DNA of 64,000 nucleotides from NCBI RefSeq assembly GCF_025917005.1, contig NZ_CP078091.1, positions 3,286,001 through 3,350,000 of the forward strand, written 5' to 3'. Of the stretch, positions 21,563 to 58,735 are shown piece after piece (within the stretch, counting starts at the first letter, position 1; each line of letters begins with the position of its first letter). Source of the DNA: Porphyrobacter sp. ULC335 (GTDB taxonomy: Bacteria; Pseudomonadota; Alphaproteobacteria; Sphingomonadales; Sphingomonadaceae). The translations under genes and the position numbers were made by a program. The notes under the pieces were generated by a model. It worked only from the letters and a program-made list of their open reading frames with translations, did no database searches and had not been told where the DNA came from.

Positions 21563-22932
21563 GCGAATGCCTCTCCCGGCCCGGTGGGCCCTTCCCGTTG
21601 TATCCCGCTTGCCCGGATCGCCTGCGCGCCGGTCGCTTTCACCGCCAGCAGCGCGGCAGCCACGAAGGCCGCCGCTTCCACCGCAAACACCAATTGAAAC
21701 GCCGCGCCGACATCGCCGAGCAGCGCCCGCGCCAGATCGAGGCCGACCGCGCCCAACAACCCGCCGAGGCCGAATGCGATGGCCTGCGATGCGCCCCAAA
21801 CGCCCATGCGCACGCCTTCGCGCGTGTTTTCACCCGCGCCGGCCAGCCCCATCATTGATCCGATCGCGGCCACCGCGAAAACACCATTGCCGAAGCCGAG
21901 AACGAACAGATTCGCTTCGAGCGGCCAGGGCGGCCCGTTGATCGCGGCAAGACCGAGCGCGCCCAGTCCCAGCCCCGAGGCAAGACATCCGCCCACCACC
22001 CAGGGCCGCAGGCCAGCCGCGCGTTTGCCCGAAAAGGCGCTCCCGCCCACTCCCGCCACAATCATCCCGATCAGGATACCGCCCTGGTGGAACTGGCCCA
22101 CGGTCTTGGTCGATTCCCCCGGCTCCATCCCGAAGATGAGGCCCGCAAAGGGCTCAAGGATCAGATCCTGCATCGAAAAGGCGATCATCGAGACAAAGAT
22201 GAAGATGGTGAAGCGCCGGGCGGCAGGCTCGTTCCAGATCTCGGTCAAGGCGGCGCGAAAATCGGGCGCGGCGCCATCGCGCGACGCATGGCCGAACCGG
22301 CCTGCCTGCCGCTCCAACCGCCATGTCGCGATCACCGTCAACGCCACCATCGCCAGCGCCAGCCCGCCCGCAACCAGCAGCATCCGGTCAAAGCTGAAGG
22401 GCTTGAGGAACTGGCCGACGGTGATCGCCGAGGCGACGATCCCCGCCACCATCATCGTCCACGTCACTGCGGCCGCAGCCGCCCGCCGTTCGGGCGCGAC
22501 GCCCGAAGCCAGCAGCGCCAGCGCCGATGTCCCGCCTGCGCCAACGCCGGCGCCGATCAGGGTGTAGGCCAGCACCGCCAGCGCGAAACCGGGGACAAAG
22601 GAGGTCGCCATGATGATGGTCGCCTGCGTGGCGAGCAATCCGCCCGCCGCCAGCACTGCAACGCCGCCGATGATCCAGCGGGTGCGGTTATTGCCCTTGT
22701 CCGAGGCATGGCCCCACAGCGGGCGGCCCAGCTGCACGGCATAATGCCACGCCACCAAACCGGCAGGGATCGCGGCAAGCAGCTTCAGCTCGACCACCAT
22801 CACCCGGTTCAGCACTGTCGTCGCCAGCATCACCAGCGCGCCGATCGCGGCCTGCACCAGCCCGATCCGGACAATTCCCAGCCAGCCGAAGCCCTGCGTT
22901 TTCACCAAGGAGGAGGCGAGGGGGGCGTGCAT
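21559..22932 (-). CDS. PucC-like MFS carrier (bacteriochlorophyll delivery family)
   Basis: 457-residue, 12-span MFS protein of the BCD group that includes LhaA and PucC. Conserved marks are TVLNRVMVVEL, RPLWGHASDKGN, SMQDLILEPFAGLIFGM and GAGENTREGVRMGVWGASQA. It lies between bchP and bchG, overlapping both by a few bases, the place of the ORF427/bch2 gene in other clusters. It probably helps deliver or insert pigment into antenna complexes; a biochemical function is not established. The start at 22932 gives MHAPLASSLVKTQG. Confidence 0.9.
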   Translation of the reverse strand: MHAPLASSLVKTQGFGWLGIVRIGLVQAAIGALVMLATTVLNRVMVVELKLLAAIPAGLVAWHYAVQLGRPLWGHASDKGNNRTRWIIGGVAVLAAGGLLATQATIIMATSFVPGFALAVLAYTLIGAGVGAGGTSALALLASGVAPERRAAAAAVTWTMMVAGIVASAITVGQFLKPFSFDRMLLVAGGLALAMVALTVIATWRLERQAGRFGHASRDGAAPDFRAALTEIWNEPAARRFTIFIFVSMIAFSMQDLILEPFAGLIFGMEPGESTKTVGQFHQGGILIGMIVAGVGGSAFSGKRAAGLRPWVVGGCLASGLGLGALGLAAINGPPWPLEANLFVLGFGNGVFAVAAIGSMMGLAGAGENTREGVRMGVWGASQAIAFGLGGLLGAVGLDLARALLGDVGAAFQLVFAVEAAAFVAAALLAVKATGAQAIRASGIQREGPTGPGEAFA

Positions 22933-23852
22933 CAGATGTACCCCCCGAGGCCGAGCGCCGCAGCGAGCATTCCCAGCACATAGAGGGTCACACCGACGCC
23001 GTTGTACCAAGGGGCATATTTCGCCGGATCGCGCAGCAGCTTGGGCATGGCGGCGATCTGCGCGGCGAGCACGCCGCTGACCACCAGCGCCGATAGCGCA
23101 TAGCCCCACGCCGCCAGCAGCGCGATGACCACCACCTGCGCGGCCGCCATGGTGACGCAGGCGAGCCGCGCTGCGGCGCTCACCCCTAGCACCACGGGCA
23201 GCGAAGTCAGGCCGGTCTGGCGGTCACCTTCGACCGCCTTGAAATCGTTGAGGACCATGATCCCGTGCGCGCCGAGCGAATACATCACCAGCACGGCGAT
23301 GACCTCTACCGAGGGCATTGACCCCAGCATGACGGCGGCGCCGGTGAACCAGCTCAGCCCTTCATAGGTCAGCCCGCACACCAGCGGGCCCAGCCAGCCA
23401 TTGGCCTTGAAGCGCAGCGGCGGGGCGGAATAGGCCCAGGCAAAGGCGAGGCCGACCAGACCGGCAATGAACACCAGCGGGCCAAGCAGCCAGCCGACCG
23501 TGGCCGAAACCAGCGTCGCAATGATGGCGATATAGAGACCCCAGCGGCCCGGAATGCGGCCTGACGGAATCGGCCGGTCAGGTTCGTTGATCGCATCGAC
23601 ATGGCGATCGAACCAGTCGTTGACCGCCTGGGAGGTGCCGCACACCAGCGGCCCTGCCAGCAACACGCCGCCCGCGACGAACCACCAACGCCCCTCCAGC
23701 CCCGCGCCGGACGATACCGCGCCGCACATGAAGGCCCACATCGGCGGGAACCAGGTGATCGGTTTGAGGAGTTCGAGCACGTCTCCCGGGCGCGGACGTA
23801 ACCGCGAAGCCGGGGTGGGCACGGTGCGAGTCGAGGGTACCGAGTGCTCCAT
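22932..23852 (-). CDS. bchG: Bacteriochlorophyll synthase (geranylgeranyl transferase)
   Basis: UbiA-family membrane prenyltransferase that esterifies bacteriochlorophyllide a with geranylgeranyl diphosphate. It has 306 residues. The first aspartate-rich motif is NDWFDRHVDAINEPDRPIPSGR and the second region VLNDFKAVEGDRQTGLTSLP, with about eight hydrophobic helices. It is the first gene of the bchG-MFS-bchP-tspO minus-strand run; its promoter lies in the AT-rich stretch 23853-24000 with a PpsR-like box. Confidence 0.95.
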   Translation of the reverse strand: MEHSVPSTRTVPTPASRLRPRPGDVLELLKPITWFPPMWAFMCGAVSSGAGLEGRWWFVAGGVLLAGPLVCGTSQAVNDWFDRHVDAINEPDRPIPSGRIPGRWGLYIAIIATLVSATVGWLLGPLVFIAGLVGLAFAWAYSAPPLRFKANGWLGPLVCGLTYEGLSWFTGAAVMLGSMPSVEVIAVLVMYSLGAHGIMVLNDFKAVEGDRQTGLTSLPVVLGVSAAARLACVTMAAAQVVVIALLAAWGYALSALVVSGVLAAQIAAMPKLLRDPAKYAPWYNGVGVTLYVLGMLAAALGLGGYI

Positions 23853-23879: not shown

Positions 23880-23881
23880 AG

Positions 23882-23899
23882 CGTCAAATTATTTTGACA
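23882..23899. promoter_or_regulatory. Near-consensus PpsR box upstream of bchG
   Basis: CGTC-N10-GACA: one mismatch (C for T) to TGTC-N10-GACA, 30 bp before the bchG start. A GACA half-site in the correct phase lies 8 bp away (23870-23873), mimicking the tandem arrangement at bchC. Confidence 0.65.
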
Positions 23900-24034
23900 C
23901 TATAAATGCACCAAAACCCGATTTTTGCGTTCAAATTCGTAAACGGGCGCAAGGCATGTCATTTCGGGGCATGTTCCCGAACTTGACAGTTGGACATTCA
24001 GGGAAGTTTTACGGCAACTGCGTCAGGCCGGTTC

Positions 24035-24089
24035 AGACCGACTCCCGACCGGGGTTAGACCCCCTCCAGACCCCGGTTAGACCCCATCT
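24035..24089. repeat. 11-bp phased AGACC repeat array
   Basis: Between bchG and ppsR. AGACCCC begins at 24057, 24068 and 24079, exactly 11 bp apart, and weaker copies AGACC and CGACC fall at 24035 and 24046 in the same phase. The rest of 23900-24158 shows no gene: an AT-rich part to about 24000, then this array, two GGTTTTGCC direct repeats (24096-24113) and a hairpin. The reverse complement of the same unit recurs at 55755-55806. Confidence 0.75.
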
Positions 24090-24114: not shown

Positions 24115-24139
24115 AAATGACCCTTCCAGCGGGTCATTT
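24115..24139 (-). terminator. Hairpin after ppsR
   Basis: AAATGACCC, 7-base loop, GGGTCATTT: a perfect 9-bp stem 20 bp past the ppsR stop. No T-tract follows on the minus strand, so termination strength is uncertain. Confidence 0.55.
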
Positions 24140-24158: not shown

Positions 24159-25580
24159 TCAGTCGTTTTCGCCGGTCAGATTGCCGAGCCCGTAACGGTG
24201 CAGTTTGGAGTAAAGGCTCTGGCGCGAAAGGCCGAGAATCTCGGCCGCCGATGCGCGGTTATCCGAGGTGTAAGACAGCGCCGCCTCGATGCATAACCGC
24301 TCGATCAGATCGGTGCTTTCGCGCACGATATCCTTGAGGCTCATGCGGCCGACAAGGTCGGTCAGCTGCTCGACAGAGCGCGGAAGATCCTGCGCGCCCG
24401 GCGGCAAATCGCGCAGCCGGCGTCCGATCGGGCGGATCACGAAAGCATAGTAGCCTTCCTCGCCCGAAGTCCGAACAGCCGATAATTCAATGGGTTCACC
24501 ATCGACATCATGGCCGATCCTGAGCACCGTGGCGACATTGCGCGCGGCACCGTGCTGGTCGATCTGGCCTTCGATCAGGTCAAGATCGATGCCCGGACGA
24601 CCGATCGATTCCGAAAGATGCCTTCCGCGCAGCTGATCGACGCTGGCGGCCTGCAACATCTCGACAAAGGCGGCATTGGCGGTGACGATCTCGAGGTTGC
24701 TGTCGGCCACCACGAAGGCGTCCGGCATCTGGTCAACGAGCGCCAGGACGGGGGAGAAATCGGTCCCCGCGCGGTCCGTGGCGGGCACCAGCCGTACCAG
24801 CAGGAACTGGCCGCGATCCTGGGTAAAACCGTTGACCGAAGCCATCACTTCGCGCGCACCGCGAGCGATCCGGATGCGCCCCGGGCTGACGGTATCAGAT
24901 ACCAGCGCAGCACCTACCAGCGACTGCACGGCATCGTGCGACGCCTTGTCGACAAAGGTCAGCAGCCGCTTGCCGGCAAGGCTCGCAGGACGCGCGCCGA
25001 CCAGCGTATGGGCGGCCGGATTGGCCTCGCGGATACGCAGCGTTCCGGCCTCGACGATCATCACCGGCTCGCTCGATCGTTCGAACAGCATCCGGTAACG
25101 CGCCTCGAGCTGGCGCATCCTGAGATAGTCCCGCTCAAGCGATTGCTGGACCTGCAACAGGCGCTGCTGGAGCTTGCCCGCTTCGCGCAGATCGCGGCCA
25201 AAGGCGATGCGGTGCTCGCCCCCGTTGACGCTCAGAACGGCATAGCGGATCGGCACATCGCCATCGCGCGAGGGATGGTTGACCTGCCGCCAATGCTGCA
25301 CTTCGCCGCGCCGCGCGGCCGCGAGCATCTCCATGATTTTGGGGCGACTTTCGTCGGTTACGGTCTCGATCCAGTTGGTGCCGACAAATCCGGCAAACCC
25401 CGGAAATTCGCGCGGATCGAAGGCCGCATCAAGGATGGTGCCGGTGTCGTCGAGAACCAGCGTCACGTCACCAGCGACCATCGCCAGCTTCATCGCTGCA
25501 TCAGCATCGAGCGTATTGAACAGCTCGGCAGCCTTCCCGAACGGGTGCTTGCCTTCAATGCTGTGTTTGCGAGTGAGCAT
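24159..25580 (-). CDS. ppsR: Photosynthesis repressor PpsR/CrtJ
   Basis: Redox- and light-responsive repressor of bch, crt and puf genes that binds TGT-N12-ACA palindromes. It has 473 residues. An N-terminal PAS region (about 35-140) is followed by a long helix, a second PAS (about 160-270, LEARYRMLFERSSEPVMIVE) and a third (about 280-390, ALVDQMPDAFVVADSNLEIV). The C terminus is a Fis-type helix-turn-helix, AAEILGLSRQSLYSKLHRYG. Cys430, just before this helix-turn-helix, lies where the CrtJ/PpsR redox cysteine is found. It follows aerR by 12 bp. Its target boxes are visible at bchC, crtF, bchG and bchF. Confidence 0.95.
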   Translation of the reverse strand: MLTRKHSIEGKHPFGKAAELFNTLDADAAMKLAMVAGDVTLVLDDTGTILDAAFDPREFPGFAGFVGTNWIETVTDESRPKIMEMLAAARRGEVQHWRQVNHPSRDGDVPIRYAVLSVNGGEHRIAFGRDLREAGKLQQRLLQVQQSLERDYLRMRQLEARYRMLFERSSEPVMIVEAGTLRIREANPAAHTLVGARPASLAGKRLLTFVDKASHDAVQSLVGAALVSDTVSPGRIRIARGAREVMASVNGFTQDRGQFLLVRLVPATDRAGTDFSPVLALVDQMPDAFVVADSNLEIVTANAAFVEMLQAASVDQLRGRHLSESIGRPGIDLDLIEGQIDQHGAARNVATVLRIGHDVDGEPIELSAVRTSGEEGYYAFVIRPIGRRLRDLPPGAQDLPRSVEQLTDLVGRMSLKDIVRESTDLIERLCIEAALSYTSDNRASAAEILGLSRQSLYSKLHRYGLGNLTGEND

Positions 25581-53157: not shown

Positions 53158-54195
53158 ATGGCCGATAACCCTCCCTCCTCCTCGGAAGCGCGGCGCAGTG
53201 CCACGCTCGAGGACATCGCGCGCGAGGCGGGTGTTTCGATCTCCACCGTGAGCCGTGCGCTGAATGACAGCCCCTCGGTGAAGCGCCGGACCAAACAGCA
53301 AATCTGGCAGATCGCCCGCGCGCATGATTACGAGTTCCGCTCATCCATGCCGAGCGGGCCAATCGGCGCGGATGCCACTATCGCGGTGGTTGTCCCCGCC
53401 CCGCAGGCGCGCGACAGCCGCGTGTCTGACCCCTTCTTCCTCGAACTGCTCGCCGGGATTGCCGAAGCCGCGCGGGAACGGAATGCCGATTTGCTCATCA
53501 GCCACCTCAGCCCTCGCGCAGGCGGCGATCTCGATTACGCGATGAGCACGAGCCGCGCGACCGGCGTGATCTTCATCGGACAGTCCTCGCTGCACCACGA
53601 ATTCAACGCCTTGGCCGCGCGCGACAACCGCTTCGTGGTGTGGGGCGCGGAGTTTCCGGACGCGCAATATTGCGTGATCGGGTCGGACAACCTCGCCGGC
53701 GGGCGGCGGGCCACCGCCCATCTCGCGCGCCTCGGGCGCAAGGGCATCCTGTTCCTCGGCGACACCGAAGCGCCCGAAGCCGAACAACGCTATCGCGGCT
53801 ACAAGCAGGCGCTCGATCAGGCGGGGATCGGACTTGACGAGGATCTTGTCCTGCCCGCCCATTTCGAGGTGCATTCGGCCGAAGCAGCAGTGCGCAGCGC
53901 GCTGGCGCGGGGACTGCGCTTTGATGCGGTGTTTGCGGCGAGCGACCTTATCGCCATCGGCGCGATCCGGGCGCTGACCCGCTCCGGGATGCGCGTGCCG
54001 GAGGATGTTTCGGTGGTGGGATACGACAACATCCCCGCCGCGCGCCTTGTCACCCCCCAGCTGACCACCATCGATCAGGACGCCAATCTGGCAGGGCGGA
54101 TGCTGGTATCGAAACTGATCGACAAGGGCGCCGGTCCGGCGATCTCGCAGCGGCTGGAAACGAGCCTGCTGATCCGCGAGAGCTGCGGGGGATGA
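53158..54195 (+). CDS. LacI-family transcriptional regulator
   Basis: 345 residues. The N-terminal helix-turn-helix at about 17-38 (LEDIAREAGVSISTVSRALN) precedes a periplasmic-binding-protein-like effector domain (VISDNLAGGRRATAHLARLG-type region, then VSVVGYDNIPAARLVTPQLT). It is probably the local repressor responding to maltose or a derivative, controlling the divergent operons and the TonB receptor. It overlaps the halogenase gene by 4 bp, which ties that gene to sugar control. Confidence 0.93.
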   Translation: MADNPPSSSEARRSATLEDIAREAGVSISTVSRALNDSPSVKRRTKQQIWQIARAHDYEFRSSMPSGPIGADATIAVVVPAPQARDSRVSDPFFLELLAGIAEAARERNADLLISHLSPRAGGDLDYAMSTSRATGVIFIGQSSLHHEFNALAARDNRFVVWGAEFPDAQYCVIGSDNLAGGRRATAHLARLGRKGILFLGDTEAPEAEQRYRGYKQALDQAGIGLDEDLVLPAHFEVHSAEAAVRSALARGLRFDAVFAASDLIAIGAIRALTRSGMRVPEDVSVVGYDNIPAARLVTPQLTTIDQDANLAGRMLVSKLIDKGAGPAISQRLETSLLIRESCGG

Positions 54196-55709
54196 CCGAA
54201 CCCGCGCCGCTCAAGAGCATCGTCATTGTCGGCGGCGGCTCGGCAGGGTGGATGACAGCGGCGGCGCTCGCCCATGCGGTCGGCGGGGCCTGCGCCATTA
54301 CCCTGATCGAAAGCGAAGCGATCGGCACAGTTGGCGTGGGAGAGGCGACCATCCCGCCGATCCGCAACTTCAACCAGCGGCTCGGCATCGACGAAGCAAC
54401 CTTCGTGCGCGAGACGCAGGGCTCTTACAAGCTCGGGATCGAGTTCATCGACTGGGGGCGCAAGGGACATAGCTACTTCCACCCCTTCGGCCAGTATGGC
54501 GCTGAATTTGATAGTGTTCCCTTCTATCACCACTGGATGCGAGAACATCTTGAACGCCGCATTGATGGCCCGATCGACGATTTCTCGATGTGCTGGGCGA
54601 TGGCCAAGGCGGGCAAGTTCGCCCACCCCTCGCCCGACCGGCGGCTGATCCAGTCGACCTTCGACTACGCCTATCACTTCGATGCCGGGCTCTACGCCGC
54701 CTTCCTGCGGCGCTTCGCCGAGGCGCGGGGGGTAAAGCGGATCGAGGGCAAGGTCGTCGACGTCGCACTGCGCGCCGAAGACGGCTTTATCGAGGCTGTG
54801 ACGCTCGACAGCGGCACCCGCATCGAAGGCGAATTCTTCATCGATTGCAGCGGCTTCCGCGGGCTTCTGATCGAAGAGGCGCTGGAGGCGGGCTACGACA
54901 ACTGGCAGCATTGGCTCCCTTGCGACCGCGCCGTGGCGGTGCCGTGCGAACGCGGCGAGTTCACCCCCTACACCCGCTCCACCGCGCGCGAGGCGGGGTG
55001 GCAATGGCGCATCCCGCTCCAGCACCGCACCGGCAATGGCTACGTGCATTGCAGCGAGTTCATTTCCGAGGACGAGGCCGCCGAAACCCTGCTCGCCAAC
55101 CTTGACGGTAAGGCCTTGGCGGACCCCCGCCCCTTGCGCTTTGTCACAGGCAAGCGGCGCGAGTTCTGGAAGCGCAATTGCGTTGCCATTGGCCTCTCCG
55201 CCGGGTTCATGGAGCCGCTGGAATCGACCAGCCTCCACCTTATCCAATACGGCATTCTGCGGCTGATCGCGCTGCTGCCCGACAACACCATGTCGCCCTT
55301 GCTCACGCGCGAATATAATGCCCAGACTTCAAGGGAATACGAGCTGATCAGGGACTTCCTGATCCTCCATTACAAGGCCACCGAACGGGACGATTCCGCG
55401 CTGTGGCGATATTGCGCGGCCATGCCGATTCCGGACAGCCTGCAATACAAGATCGACCACTTCCGCAGCCACGGAATGCTGGTTGCCGACGGGCAGGAGC
55501 TGTTCGCAAATCCCAGCTGGATTGCGGTCTATCTCGGGCAGGGCATCGTCCCGCAACGGGCCCCTGCCCTTGCCGCGATGCGCGTAGGTGTGCCGGTTGC
55601 CGAGCGGCTCCGGCAGATCCGGCAGGCGATGGACGAGGCGGTTGCCACCATGCCATCGCATGGCGATTTCATCGCCCGGCATTGCCCCGCCCCGCCGATC
55701 GCGTCCTGA
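54192..55709 (+). CDS. FAD-dependent tryptophan-halogenase-type protein 1
   Basis: 505 residues. FAD motif GGGSAG is at 14-19. The catalytic lysine equivalent to PrnA Lys79 is Lys80 (GSYKLGIEF), the WxWxIP halogenase signature is at 270-275 (WQWRIP), and the glutamate equivalent to PrnA Glu346 is Glu344 (EPLESTS). All key residues for flavin-dependent halogenation are thus present. The substrate is unknown; no peptide or polyketide synthesis genes lie nearby. It is co-transcribed with the sugar regulator, and a close paralogue lies at 59864. Confidence 0.92.
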   Translation: MTEPAPLKSIVIVGGGSAGWMTAAALAHAVGGACAITLIESEAIGTVGVGEATIPPIRNFNQRLGIDEATFVRETQGSYKLGIEFIDWGRKGHSYFHPFGQYGAEFDSVPFYHHWMREHLERRIDGPIDDFSMCWAMAKAGKFAHPSPDRRLIQSTFDYAYHFDAGLYAAFLRRFAEARGVKRIEGKVVDVALRAEDGFIEAVTLDSGTRIEGEFFIDCSGFRGLLIEEALEAGYDNWQHWLPCDRAVAVPCERGEFTPYTRSTAREAGWQWRIPLQHRTGNGYVHCSEFISEDEAAETLLANLDGKALADPRPLRFVTGKRREFWKRNCVAIGLSAGFMEPLESTSLHLIQYGILRLIALLPDNTMSPLLTREYNAQTSREYELIRDFLILHYKATERDDSALWRYCAAMPIPDSLQYKIDHFRSHGMLVADGQELFANPSWIAVYLGQGIVPQRAPALAAMRVGVPVAERLRQIRQAMDEAVATMPSHGDFIARHCPAPPIAS

Positions 55710-55754
55710 TCAAGCCACACACCACCACCCGAAGGCGATGTTTCACGCAAAACA

Positions 55755-55806
55755 TCGGGCTAAAGGGGGTCTAAGAGGGGTCTAGAGGGGGTCTAACCCC
55801 CGGCTA
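55755..55806. repeat. 11-bp phased GGGGTCTA repeat array
   Basis: GGGGTCTA occurs at 55766, 55777 and 55788, exactly 11 bp apart, and CTA continues in phase at 55760 and 55804. It lies between the convergent halogenase and receptor genes and is the reverse complement of the array at 24035-24089. No gene is seen in 55710-55915. Confidence 0.8.
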
Positions 55807-55915: not shown

Positions 55916-58735
55916 TCAGAAGCTCTTGCGGATCGTGAACTGGAAGGTCCGTCCGTAGATCTCGTGACGGCTCGGGAAAGAAACACCGAGCGACTGGGGG
56001 GCCGGCGTGGATCCCGGAGCCCGGTCGAACAGCTCGTTCTCGGTCACGAAGGGTTCGTTGGTCAGGTTGAAGACTTCTGCAAGAACCTGCACCCCGTTGA
56101 GGAAGCTGCCTTCCTTCTCGAAGGTGTAACCGATCTGCGCATCGAGGATCGTCTCGCTCTGCGAGTTTGCCCCTTCGAGCCCGCCTGCAAAGTTCGGAAC
56201 CTCCGACAGGAACGCACCACGATGGCGCGCAGCCAGCTTGGCACGGAAGCCATTCTTTTCGTAGAAGATGTCGCTCGACCAGGTGAGGTCCGAATAGCCC
56301 GGGATCGCAATCGGGGTCTGGCCCGGGGGGTCGATTGTCGCGTCCGAGTAGGTCACCGAATAGAAGCCGCCGAACCCGTCAAGCACATCGACGAGGTCGC
56401 CGAAATTGACGCGCACCGTACCTTCGATCCCGGTGATCGAACCATCCGAGAAGTTGACCGGCCCGTCGAACGCCCCGACCGCGAGTTGCGGCGCAGTGGT
56501 CAGGATGGAGCCGAAGCCCGCGTTCTGGATCTGCTGGGTCAGATCGAGCACGGTCGGCTGATTGACGACCCAGTCCGACAGATCCTTGTGGAAGGCGGCA
56601 ACGATGATCGCCGTACCTGGCGTGAAGTACTTTTCGAACGAGATGTCGAATGACGTCGAACGGTACGGCTGCAAGGTCGGGTTGCCGCCGCTAAGGTTGA
56701 AACACACCAGCGCAGGCGGGTTGAAGCCGATCACCGTATCCGGGATCTGGTCGGCGTTGGTGTCCGAACAGCTCAGCGGATTGACGTTGATGTTCTGGTT
56801 CGCCGCCAGCTGATCGAGCCGGGCACGGGTGATGGTCTTGGCAAAGGCGAGGCGGATGAAGGTATCCTCCATGACCTCGAAACCAAGGTTCACGCTCGGC
56901 AGCCAGTTGTCGTAGCTGGCGTTGACTTCGTTCACGCGGCCGCCACTGATCGTGCCGGTCGAGCTTTGCGAGGTATCGACATAACGCAGACCGATATTGC
57001 CGCGCACCGGCACCGAGCCGAGATCGCCGTCGATATTGGCCTGGATGTAGAAGTTGTGCACCTGCTCATCCACGAGCCATTCGGTATCGTCGGTGGCACG
57101 CTGCAGCGTGTAGGCACCACTGGTCAGCAGGCTTGCCGGATTATAGGCGATGATGTCCTGCCCGATGCCCTTGGTGTTGGTCTGGCCGATAATGAGGTCC
57201 GACGGGATCGCGCGCGAGCTGTTCACGAAGCCGGTGCCCGGACGCAGGAAGGTTCCGTTGTTGTCGAAGTCCTTCGAGCGGTCGGTATAGAGCCAGCCTG
57301 CCACGATGCGGTCGATGAAGCCGCCATCGAACTCCCAATAGGCTTCGGCGCGGAGCTGATGCAGTTCGTCATTGATTTCCGGTTCGCGCAGGAAGCCGAC
57401 CTGGCCCCACCCGCCCGGATCGGTGAGCAGCACGTTGGCCGGGTTGGTGTAATCAATCAGCCCGTCGATGCTGTATTCGCCGTTCGGGTTGAAGTTGAAG
57501 GTCAGCGTGTCGGCCGGGCCGGTGCCGTTGCGGCCGGTGCCGGCATAGGATTCATAATCGACATCGTCGCGGTCGAGCGTCGAATAACCGTAATCGAGCA
57601 CGAAGCCGAGGTTGTCGGTCGCCTTCCACTCAAGGTTGCCGCCCACCGCGAAGATCGAGGAATCCGCGCCTTCGGTGTCGGTCCGCAGGATCGGGAAGAC
57701 GTTGGTATAGGTCGCGCTCTGTGCAAACGGGCCGGAACCCGTCACGGCGCCGACCTGCGCCCCGCCATTGGTGCTCCACGAAGCAATCGGGGTTTCGGTG
57801 CCGCGGAAGATGCCCGAATCTTCGGTGCCCGTGTAGAAGCCGTCGATCGTCAGCGAGAACCGGTCGGTCGGCTCGAACTGAAGCGAACCGGCAATCGAGG
57901 TGCGCTTGAACTCGCGACTCTGCACACCCTGACGCGGGTTATCGCGCGGGAACACGGTGCCGCCCGGGGTGACGGTGCGGGTAACCTGGCCATTATTGGT
58001 CTTCAGCTCGCGCTGGATGATCTGGGTCGGGATCGACTGCATCGTCGCGCCGAGCGACCAGCCGATGGTGCCATCGGCATTCTGGTCGATGTAGCTGGCG
58101 AAGAAGCGATAGCCGTCAGCGCCGAAATCGGGGTTGAGCGAGCCATTGTCGTTGAGCGTGTAGGTGCCCGAAACCGTGATCTGGCGCTTCTTGGAATCGA
58201 GCGGCTTGATGGTGCGCAGGTCGACCGCGCCGGCGATGCCGATGGCGGCAAGCTGCGCGTCACCGGTCTTGTAGACCACGCCGGTGCCGATCAGTTCCGA
58301 CGGGAACTGGTCGAACTCGATCCCGCGGTTGTTGCCGGCCGAAACGACTTCGCGGCCGTTAAGCAGCGCGAGCGAGAAGTCCGGGCCGAGGCCGCGGATC
58401 GAGACCGACTGCGAACGGCCGCGCACGCGCTGGGCGGTGACGCCGGGCAGGCGGGCAAGCGTATCTGCGATCGAAAGGTCGGGAAGCAGGCCAAGGTCTT
58501 CGGAGGTGATCACCTCGACGATCGAAGTGGCCTGGCGCTTCGCATCCAGCGAGGACTGGATCGAGCCGCGGATGCCGGTGACGACGATTGCGTCCTCGCC
58601 TTCGCCCTCGACAGCGGCGGCCGCCTGTTCGTCCGTCTCTTGCGCCAGCACCGGCACGCCGGTTGCCGTCAGCGCCAGAAAGGTTGCGGCCCCGCACAGC
58701 AGGCGCGCGCTTGCATTGATCCCGTTCATTTTCAT
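55916..58735 (-). CDS. TonB-dependent receptor, maltodextrin locus
   Basis: Large outer-membrane receptor of 939 residues, of the type abundant in Xanthomonas, Caulobacter and sphingomonads. The signal peptide ends near residue 31 (VLAQE). The TonB-box region EDAIVVTGIRGSIQSSLDAK is followed by a plug (LGLLPDLSIADTLARLPGVT and VSIRGLGPDFSLALLNGRE) and the barrel, ending FQFTIRKSF. It is expected to import maltodextrin across the outer membrane (MalA-like). It is flanked on both sides by halogenase genes, transcribed toward the first and away from the DUF6445/second halogenase pair. Confidence 0.94.
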   Translation of the reverse strand: MKMNGINASARLLCGAATFLALTATGVPVLAQETDEQAAAAVEGEGEDAIVVTGIRGSIQSSLDAKRQATSIVEVITSEDLGLLPDLSIADTLARLPGVTAQRVRGRSQSVSIRGLGPDFSLALLNGREVVSAGNNRGIEFDQFPSELIGTGVVYKTGDAQLAAIGIAGAVDLRTIKPLDSKKRQITVSGTYTLNDNGSLNPDFGADGYRFFASYIDQNADGTIGWSLGATMQSIPTQIIQRELKTNNGQVTRTVTPGGTVFPRDNPRQGVQSREFKRTSIAGSLQFEPTDRFSLTIDGFYTGTEDSGIFRGTETPIASWSTNGGAQVGAVTGSGPFAQSATYTNVFPILRTDTEGADSSIFAVGGNLEWKATDNLGFVLDYGYSTLDRDDVDYESYAGTGRNGTGPADTLTFNFNPNGEYSIDGLIDYTNPANVLLTDPGGWGQVGFLREPEINDELHQLRAEAYWEFDGGFIDRIVAGWLYTDRSKDFDNNGTFLRPGTGFVNSSRAIPSDLIIGQTNTKGIGQDIIAYNPASLLTSGAYTLQRATDDTEWLVDEQVHNFYIQANIDGDLGSVPVRGNIGLRYVDTSQSSTGTISGGRVNEVNASYDNWLPSVNLGFEVMEDTFIRLAFAKTITRARLDQLAANQNINVNPLSCSDTNADQIPDTVIGFNPPALVCFNLSGGNPTLQPYRSTSFDISFEKYFTPGTAIIVAAFHKDLSDWVVNQPTVLDLTQQIQNAGFGSILTTAPQLAVGAFDGPVNFSDGSITGIEGTVRVNFGDLVDVLDGFGGFYSVTYSDATIDPPGQTPIAIPGYSDLTWSSDIFYEKNGFRAKLAARHRGAFLSEVPNFAGGLEGANSQSETILDAQIGYTFEKEGSFLNGVQVLAEVFNLTNEPFVTENELFDRAPGSTPAPQSLGVSFPSRHEIYGRTFQFTIRKSF

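Follow-up and report, generated by a model that had tools for sequence, protein, structure and literature searches.

Between ppsR and bchG, in the window (the whole 64-kb stretch of DNA analyzed here), lies a short run of repeats spaced 11 bp apart, read as AGACCCC on the forward strand and as GGGGTCT on the other. Does this array serve its two neighbors, or is it one member of something larger?

The initial annotation placed exact AGACCCC units at 24057, 24068, and 24079, with weaker copies in register at 24046 and 24035. Re-checking the window sequence finds all of them, the weaker pair reading CGACCGG and AGACCGA, respectively (Table 1). The annotation further proposed that this array and a second one, at 55755, represent a defined family of elements. 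The second array does carry the same unit on the other strand; exact GGGGTCT begins only at 55766 (and again at 55777 and 55788), the unit at 55755 being degenerate.

Table 1. Features at the two array loci, in window positions
Feature	Position	Strand	Details
bchG, bacteriochlorophyll synthase	22932..23852	-	TIGR01476, 344 bits; next gene downstream of ppsR, same strand
Degenerate in-register units (three)	24020..24052	-	CCGGTCGGGAG, TCGGTCTGAAC, CGGCCTGACGC; the first two contain the weaker copies (24046, 24035)
Core array	24053..24085	-	three perfect units, GGGGTCTAACC, GGGGTCTGGAG, GGGGTCTAACC; period 11
ppsR	24159..25580	-	TIGR02040, 370.8 bits
Flavin-dependent (tryptophan) halogenase family gene	54192..55709	+	PF04820, 644 bits; left side of the convergent junction with the 55755 element
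parS-like palindrome	55739..55754		TGTTTCACGCAAAACA, 2 mismatches; 29 bp after the halogenase-type gene's stop codon
Array, three GGGGTCT units	55766..55794	+	at 27, 38, and 49 bp, counted from the palindrome start; preceded by a degenerate unit at 55755
TonB-dependent receptor	55916..58735	-	TIGR01782, 521 bits; right side of the convergent junction with the 55755 element

The array in the ppsR-bchG gap

This array begins 73 bp beyond the ppsR stop codon, and its minus strand, the strand of both genes, is the G-rich one. An array in the same orientation, about 50–110 bp past the ppsR stop, occupies this gap in at least eight relatives (G014, G025, G034, G017, G003, G022, G016, and G007), and none of 100 shuffles reaches the score. 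It is weaker in G032, G011, G013, and G031. Several clade members lack it, as do all eight of the outgroup genomes that were readable. Its recurrence in relatives, in one orientation, indicates that the array is an old, mostly kept resident of the gap, in line with the conservation that the initial annotation had made a test of its proposal.

Two inverted repeats also lie in the gap. One, at 23881-23901 ahead of bchG (gene strand GTGTCAAAATAATTTGACGC), hardly varies within the genus, whether or not a genome has arrays, and is probably a promoter or regulator site. The other, at 24115-24139 (AAATGACCC/GGGTCATTT), lies just past the ppsR stop and is a possible ppsR terminator hairpin.

The initial annotation also entertained a small RNA and a role for ppsR or bchG in particular. 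The small-RNA reading is unsupported: no Rfam family matches the 64-kb window at gathering score, and the strand that is sense here is the G-rich one, which is sense in only 9 of the family's 40 tandem cases. Service to ppsR or bchG is likewise unsupported, as members of the family adjoin unrelated genes, mostly at convergent gene ends, and nothing ties this array to photosynthesis control in particular.

A genome-wide family, phased to parS palindromes

With the unit taken as GGGGTCT-N4 at period 11, the two-unit pattern GGGGTCTNNNNGGGGTCT matches the window four times (up to two mismatches allowed, all four exact) against 0.32 expected, and none of 100 dinucleotide shuffles reaches four; chance, named at the outset as the refuting alternative, does not account for the arrays. 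The genome-wide search that the initial annotation had called for yields 87 exact two-unit matches in the 3.62-Mb genome (G000), forming 48 arrays, and none for the same pattern reversed. The proposal of a defined family was thus right, although it missed both this extent and the coupling of most members, the 55755 copy included, to parS.

Gene context, taken from a purpose-written gene caller, is sharply skewed. None of the 48 arrays lies inside coding sequence; 26 occupy convergent gaps, which make up 79 of 616 gaps overall (p = 4e-13), and three occupy divergent gaps (167 of 616 overall). The elements sit directly after stop codons. Copies share the motif letters alone: their spacers are unrelated, with no homology outside the motif. 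Counts give no KOPS-like replichore polarity (11:11 and 13:13, with the terminus taken opposite parAB).

The family is patchy between species. An exact pattern containing the A made some relatives appear array-less, a reading that we rejected since G003 and G031 carry variants in which the unit is mostly GGGGTCTG instead of GGGGTCTA. No palindrome accompanies the matches in Binatota, Sandaracinus, Caldilineaceae, Prevotella, and cyanobacterial MAGs, which resemble unrelated simple repeats.

Alignment of the arrays reveals a companion. Most are preceded by the palindrome TGTTTCACGTGAAACA or a close variant, which is the canonical 16-bp ParB site, parS: 36 of 48 arrays have such a palindrome (up to four mismatches) 27–84 bp away. 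Conversely, about 40 of 49 scattered palindromes have a GGGGTCT unit, and about nine have no array. The units fall on one side of the palindrome only (113 versus 0), and the distances are quantized in 11-bp steps (27, 38, 49, and 60 bp), so that 31 of 36 equal 4, 5, or 6 modulo 11 (p ~3e-13). G022 shows these steps too, as do further contigs of the group.

The array between ppsR and bchG is one of the 12 members without a palindrome, and no palindrome was seen in any readable ppsR-bchG gap of the relatives, some gaps having been read mis-oriented in that search. Its own role is therefore less certain than that of the composite sites.

Several individual sites vary the theme. At L202 and L203 the parS sites of the parAB cluster are array-free in both species, arrays accompanying scattered sites only. 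Near 10050 of L124 and near 5646 of L063, just the array-proximal half of the palindrome is present (GTGAAACA), at the phased distance of 38. At L208 9996-10011 (G000 1109095), a perfect parS without an array lies between convergent genes only 44 bp apart, and it is kept at the same junction in G003 and G031.

Scattered parS sites and their probable reader

G000 contains 51 palindromes within one mismatch and 57 within two; the control contains none. Six of the 57 lie in the parAB region (575.7-580.4 kb), and some 45–50 more are spread round the chromosome, some of them at 2.30-2.49 Mb, across the circle from the parAB cluster (0.58 Mb), where the terminus is assumed to lie. Rayleigh tests detect no clustering in either G000 or G003 (p = 0.48 and 0.93). 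Within the order, 232 genomes sampled outside the genus have zero to four exact copies each, and 15–30 per genome are found within the genus only. Genus genomes themselves fall into groups, with 1–4 versus about 9–80 sites within one mismatch.

Positions are conserved as well. Of 20 junctions with an element, 18 keep it in the syntenic counterpart, compared with 3 of 203 other junctions, a contrast somewhat inflated because the stretches of G022, G003, and G031 compared were chosen for holding elements. Intergenic DNA at shared junctions is just 51–59% identical between G000 and G022, which argues that the motifs there are maintained by selection and not by recent descent.

Which protein reads these sites? 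The most informative genome is G022, where one sequence, TGTTCCACGTGGAACA, stands at the seven exact sites near parAB and at all 45 scattered ones. At junctions shared with G000, G003, or G031, where the palindrome has the TTTC/GAAA form, that of G022 stands in the same place with both arms changed. Next to the recognition helix, ParB of G022 carries two substitutions of its own, V to I and M to H. Because cluster and scattered sites all carry the one changed form, a single protein, the chromosomal ParB, very probably reads both; that ParB binds the scattered sites in the cell is what we infer from these sequences. The joint change, together with the occurrence of both orientations relative to genes, led us to reject an RNA hairpin as the primary function of the palindrome.

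The ParB sequences of the scattered-site clade separate from the others at 0.999 support. Clade-wide changes (L202, L203, L222, L224, L228, and others) include a one-residue insertion ahead of the GERRWRAA motif and, around the recognition helix, A to V and LQ to MM.

A Noc-like ParB paralogue reading the scattered palindromes is a most improbable alternative. Noc is a ParB paralogue with its own site in Firmicutes, and Bacillus Noc uses many scattered sites, much like the distribution described here; for a discussion of Noc, see PMC7022226. However, the sites here follow ParB's own site, changing together with the cluster in G022; no part of the chromosome is depleted of them, as the Rayleigh values attest, and they extend into the assumed terminus region, where Noc sites would be absent; and G003, G011, G034, G035, and G001 each have a single ParB-family gene, so no such paralogue is needed.

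What the composite element might do

Our preferred explanation, which we hold to be probable on the sequence evidence, is that the scattered palindromes are ParB-loading sites placed in sheltered 3' ends, where the polar array, with a second factor, marks, anchors, or bounds the ParB complex. A clade of Erythrobacter/Porphyrobacter would thus possess a two-part chromosomal element, in which the one chromosomal ParB reads a parS palindrome and a polar, 11-bp-phased GGGGTCT array follows on one side. Some 40–60 copies, lodged at gene 3' ends (convergent ones above all) and so sheltered from transcription, would provide distributed ParB-loading sites over the whole chromosome. Most likely the array marks or shields the site, either by holding a putative second protein beside the ParB clamp or by terminating transcription that runs in. 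As for the array's partner, two readings lead, a DNA-binding protein and Rho loading; phase-locking and strict polarity favor protein on DNA. Both partner and cell-level role are conjectural, the latter perhaps being to organize the whole nucleoid or to control division via SMC, MipZ, or other ParB partners. Every genus genome searched has MipZ, which partners ParB in Caulobacter (PMC5815017), so an output in division control is possible.

The Rho reading takes the array for a Rho-utilization (rut) site and the palindrome downstream, as a hairpin or as a ParB roadblock, for the pause, the whole being a Rho-dependent terminator with a borrowed parS. We judge this unlikely though credible. A rut site is defined by C over G, cytosines every 11–13 nt, and a downstream pause (PMC6407284); the C-rich strand of the array has a C every 11 nt, is the sense strand in 31 of 40 tandem contexts (p = 0.0007), and follows just after stop codons at gene ends. 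C/G over 78 nt is raised (median 1.65), but only modestly, since other 3' gaps reach a median of 1.42 in their best window. A rut site has no need of so strict a motif, with its T, C, and T letters, nor of one-sidedness and phase-lock to a palindrome, and it leaves the joint change of scattered palindromes and parAB cluster unexplained. At 24035, where ppsR and bchG have the G-rich strand as their sense strand, it would act on antisense RNA only. The two readings are nonetheless compatible: a terminator that shields parS from incoming transcription would make sense.

Two further readings concern the repeats as such. PhoB/OmpR-type response-regulator boxes are 7-bp direct repeats with a 4-bp spacer, a geometry and polarity that the array reproduces, yet control of nearby promoters is improbable in view of the avoidance of divergent, promoter-bearing gaps and the preference for convergent ends; an array-binding protein acting in chromosome structure could still have a PhoB/OmpR-type fold. 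It is very improbable, too, that palindrome plus array is a mobile repeat of REP or MITE type without host function. Such an origin would suit extragenic elements in many copies, patchy between species and located, like REP/BIME, at gene 3' ends, and E. cryptus, of the same genus, is listed in a survey with many REP-type repeats (PMC12306157), which may differ from these elements. Against it stand a palindrome that is a ParB site, copies that keep the motif letters alone and differ in their spacers, identical junctions across species despite the low intergenic identity, and, in G022, about 50 sites that changed jointly.

Among segregation systems, plasmid R1 offers a possible partial parallel, its parC having 11-bp iterons bound by ParR: tandem 11-bp direct repeats in a segregation site, of a different sequence and not dispersed over a chromosome as here. 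Pseudomonas ParB also occupies many dispersed places, by binding half-parS sequences (PMC7022226); the sites here, however, are full 16-bp palindromes with a companion array. ParABS itself shares the identical 16-bp palindrome, the same sites next to parAB, and one ParB. The difference lies in placement, parS normally being confined to the origin domain and here recurring chromosome-wide, in most cases beside a phased array on one side. According to the literature, parS belongs to the origin domain and carries a cost at mid-arm in Caulobacter (PMC5815017, PMC7022226), where an extra mid-arm pair is harmful (PMC5815017); scattered functional parS sites are therefore unexpected. Our search of the open-access literature found no paper on scattered full parS sites, or on the array, in this group.

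What is new here is the genomic arrangement of ParB-parS and the motif that accompanies it. A bolder formulation, which we offer tentatively, is that an origin-only centromere system may have been turned into a chromosome-wide network, in which one ParB and about 50 parS sites, with polar arrays for a second DNA-binding protein that limits or directs ParB sliding, possibly serve nucleoid-wide condensation or occlusion (for example via MipZ).

Should ParB bind the scattered copies, which the evidence suggests it does, these organisms would break a general rule of how bacterial chromosomes are organized. With about 50 parS sites at conserved gene junctions, most beside a one-sided phased array, the bounding of ParB spreading would become directly testable, and the same clade would make testable whether ParB can organize a whole chromosome. 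G022 provides a natural case of ParB-parS coevolution, and the arrays furnish a search image for a new array-binding protein.
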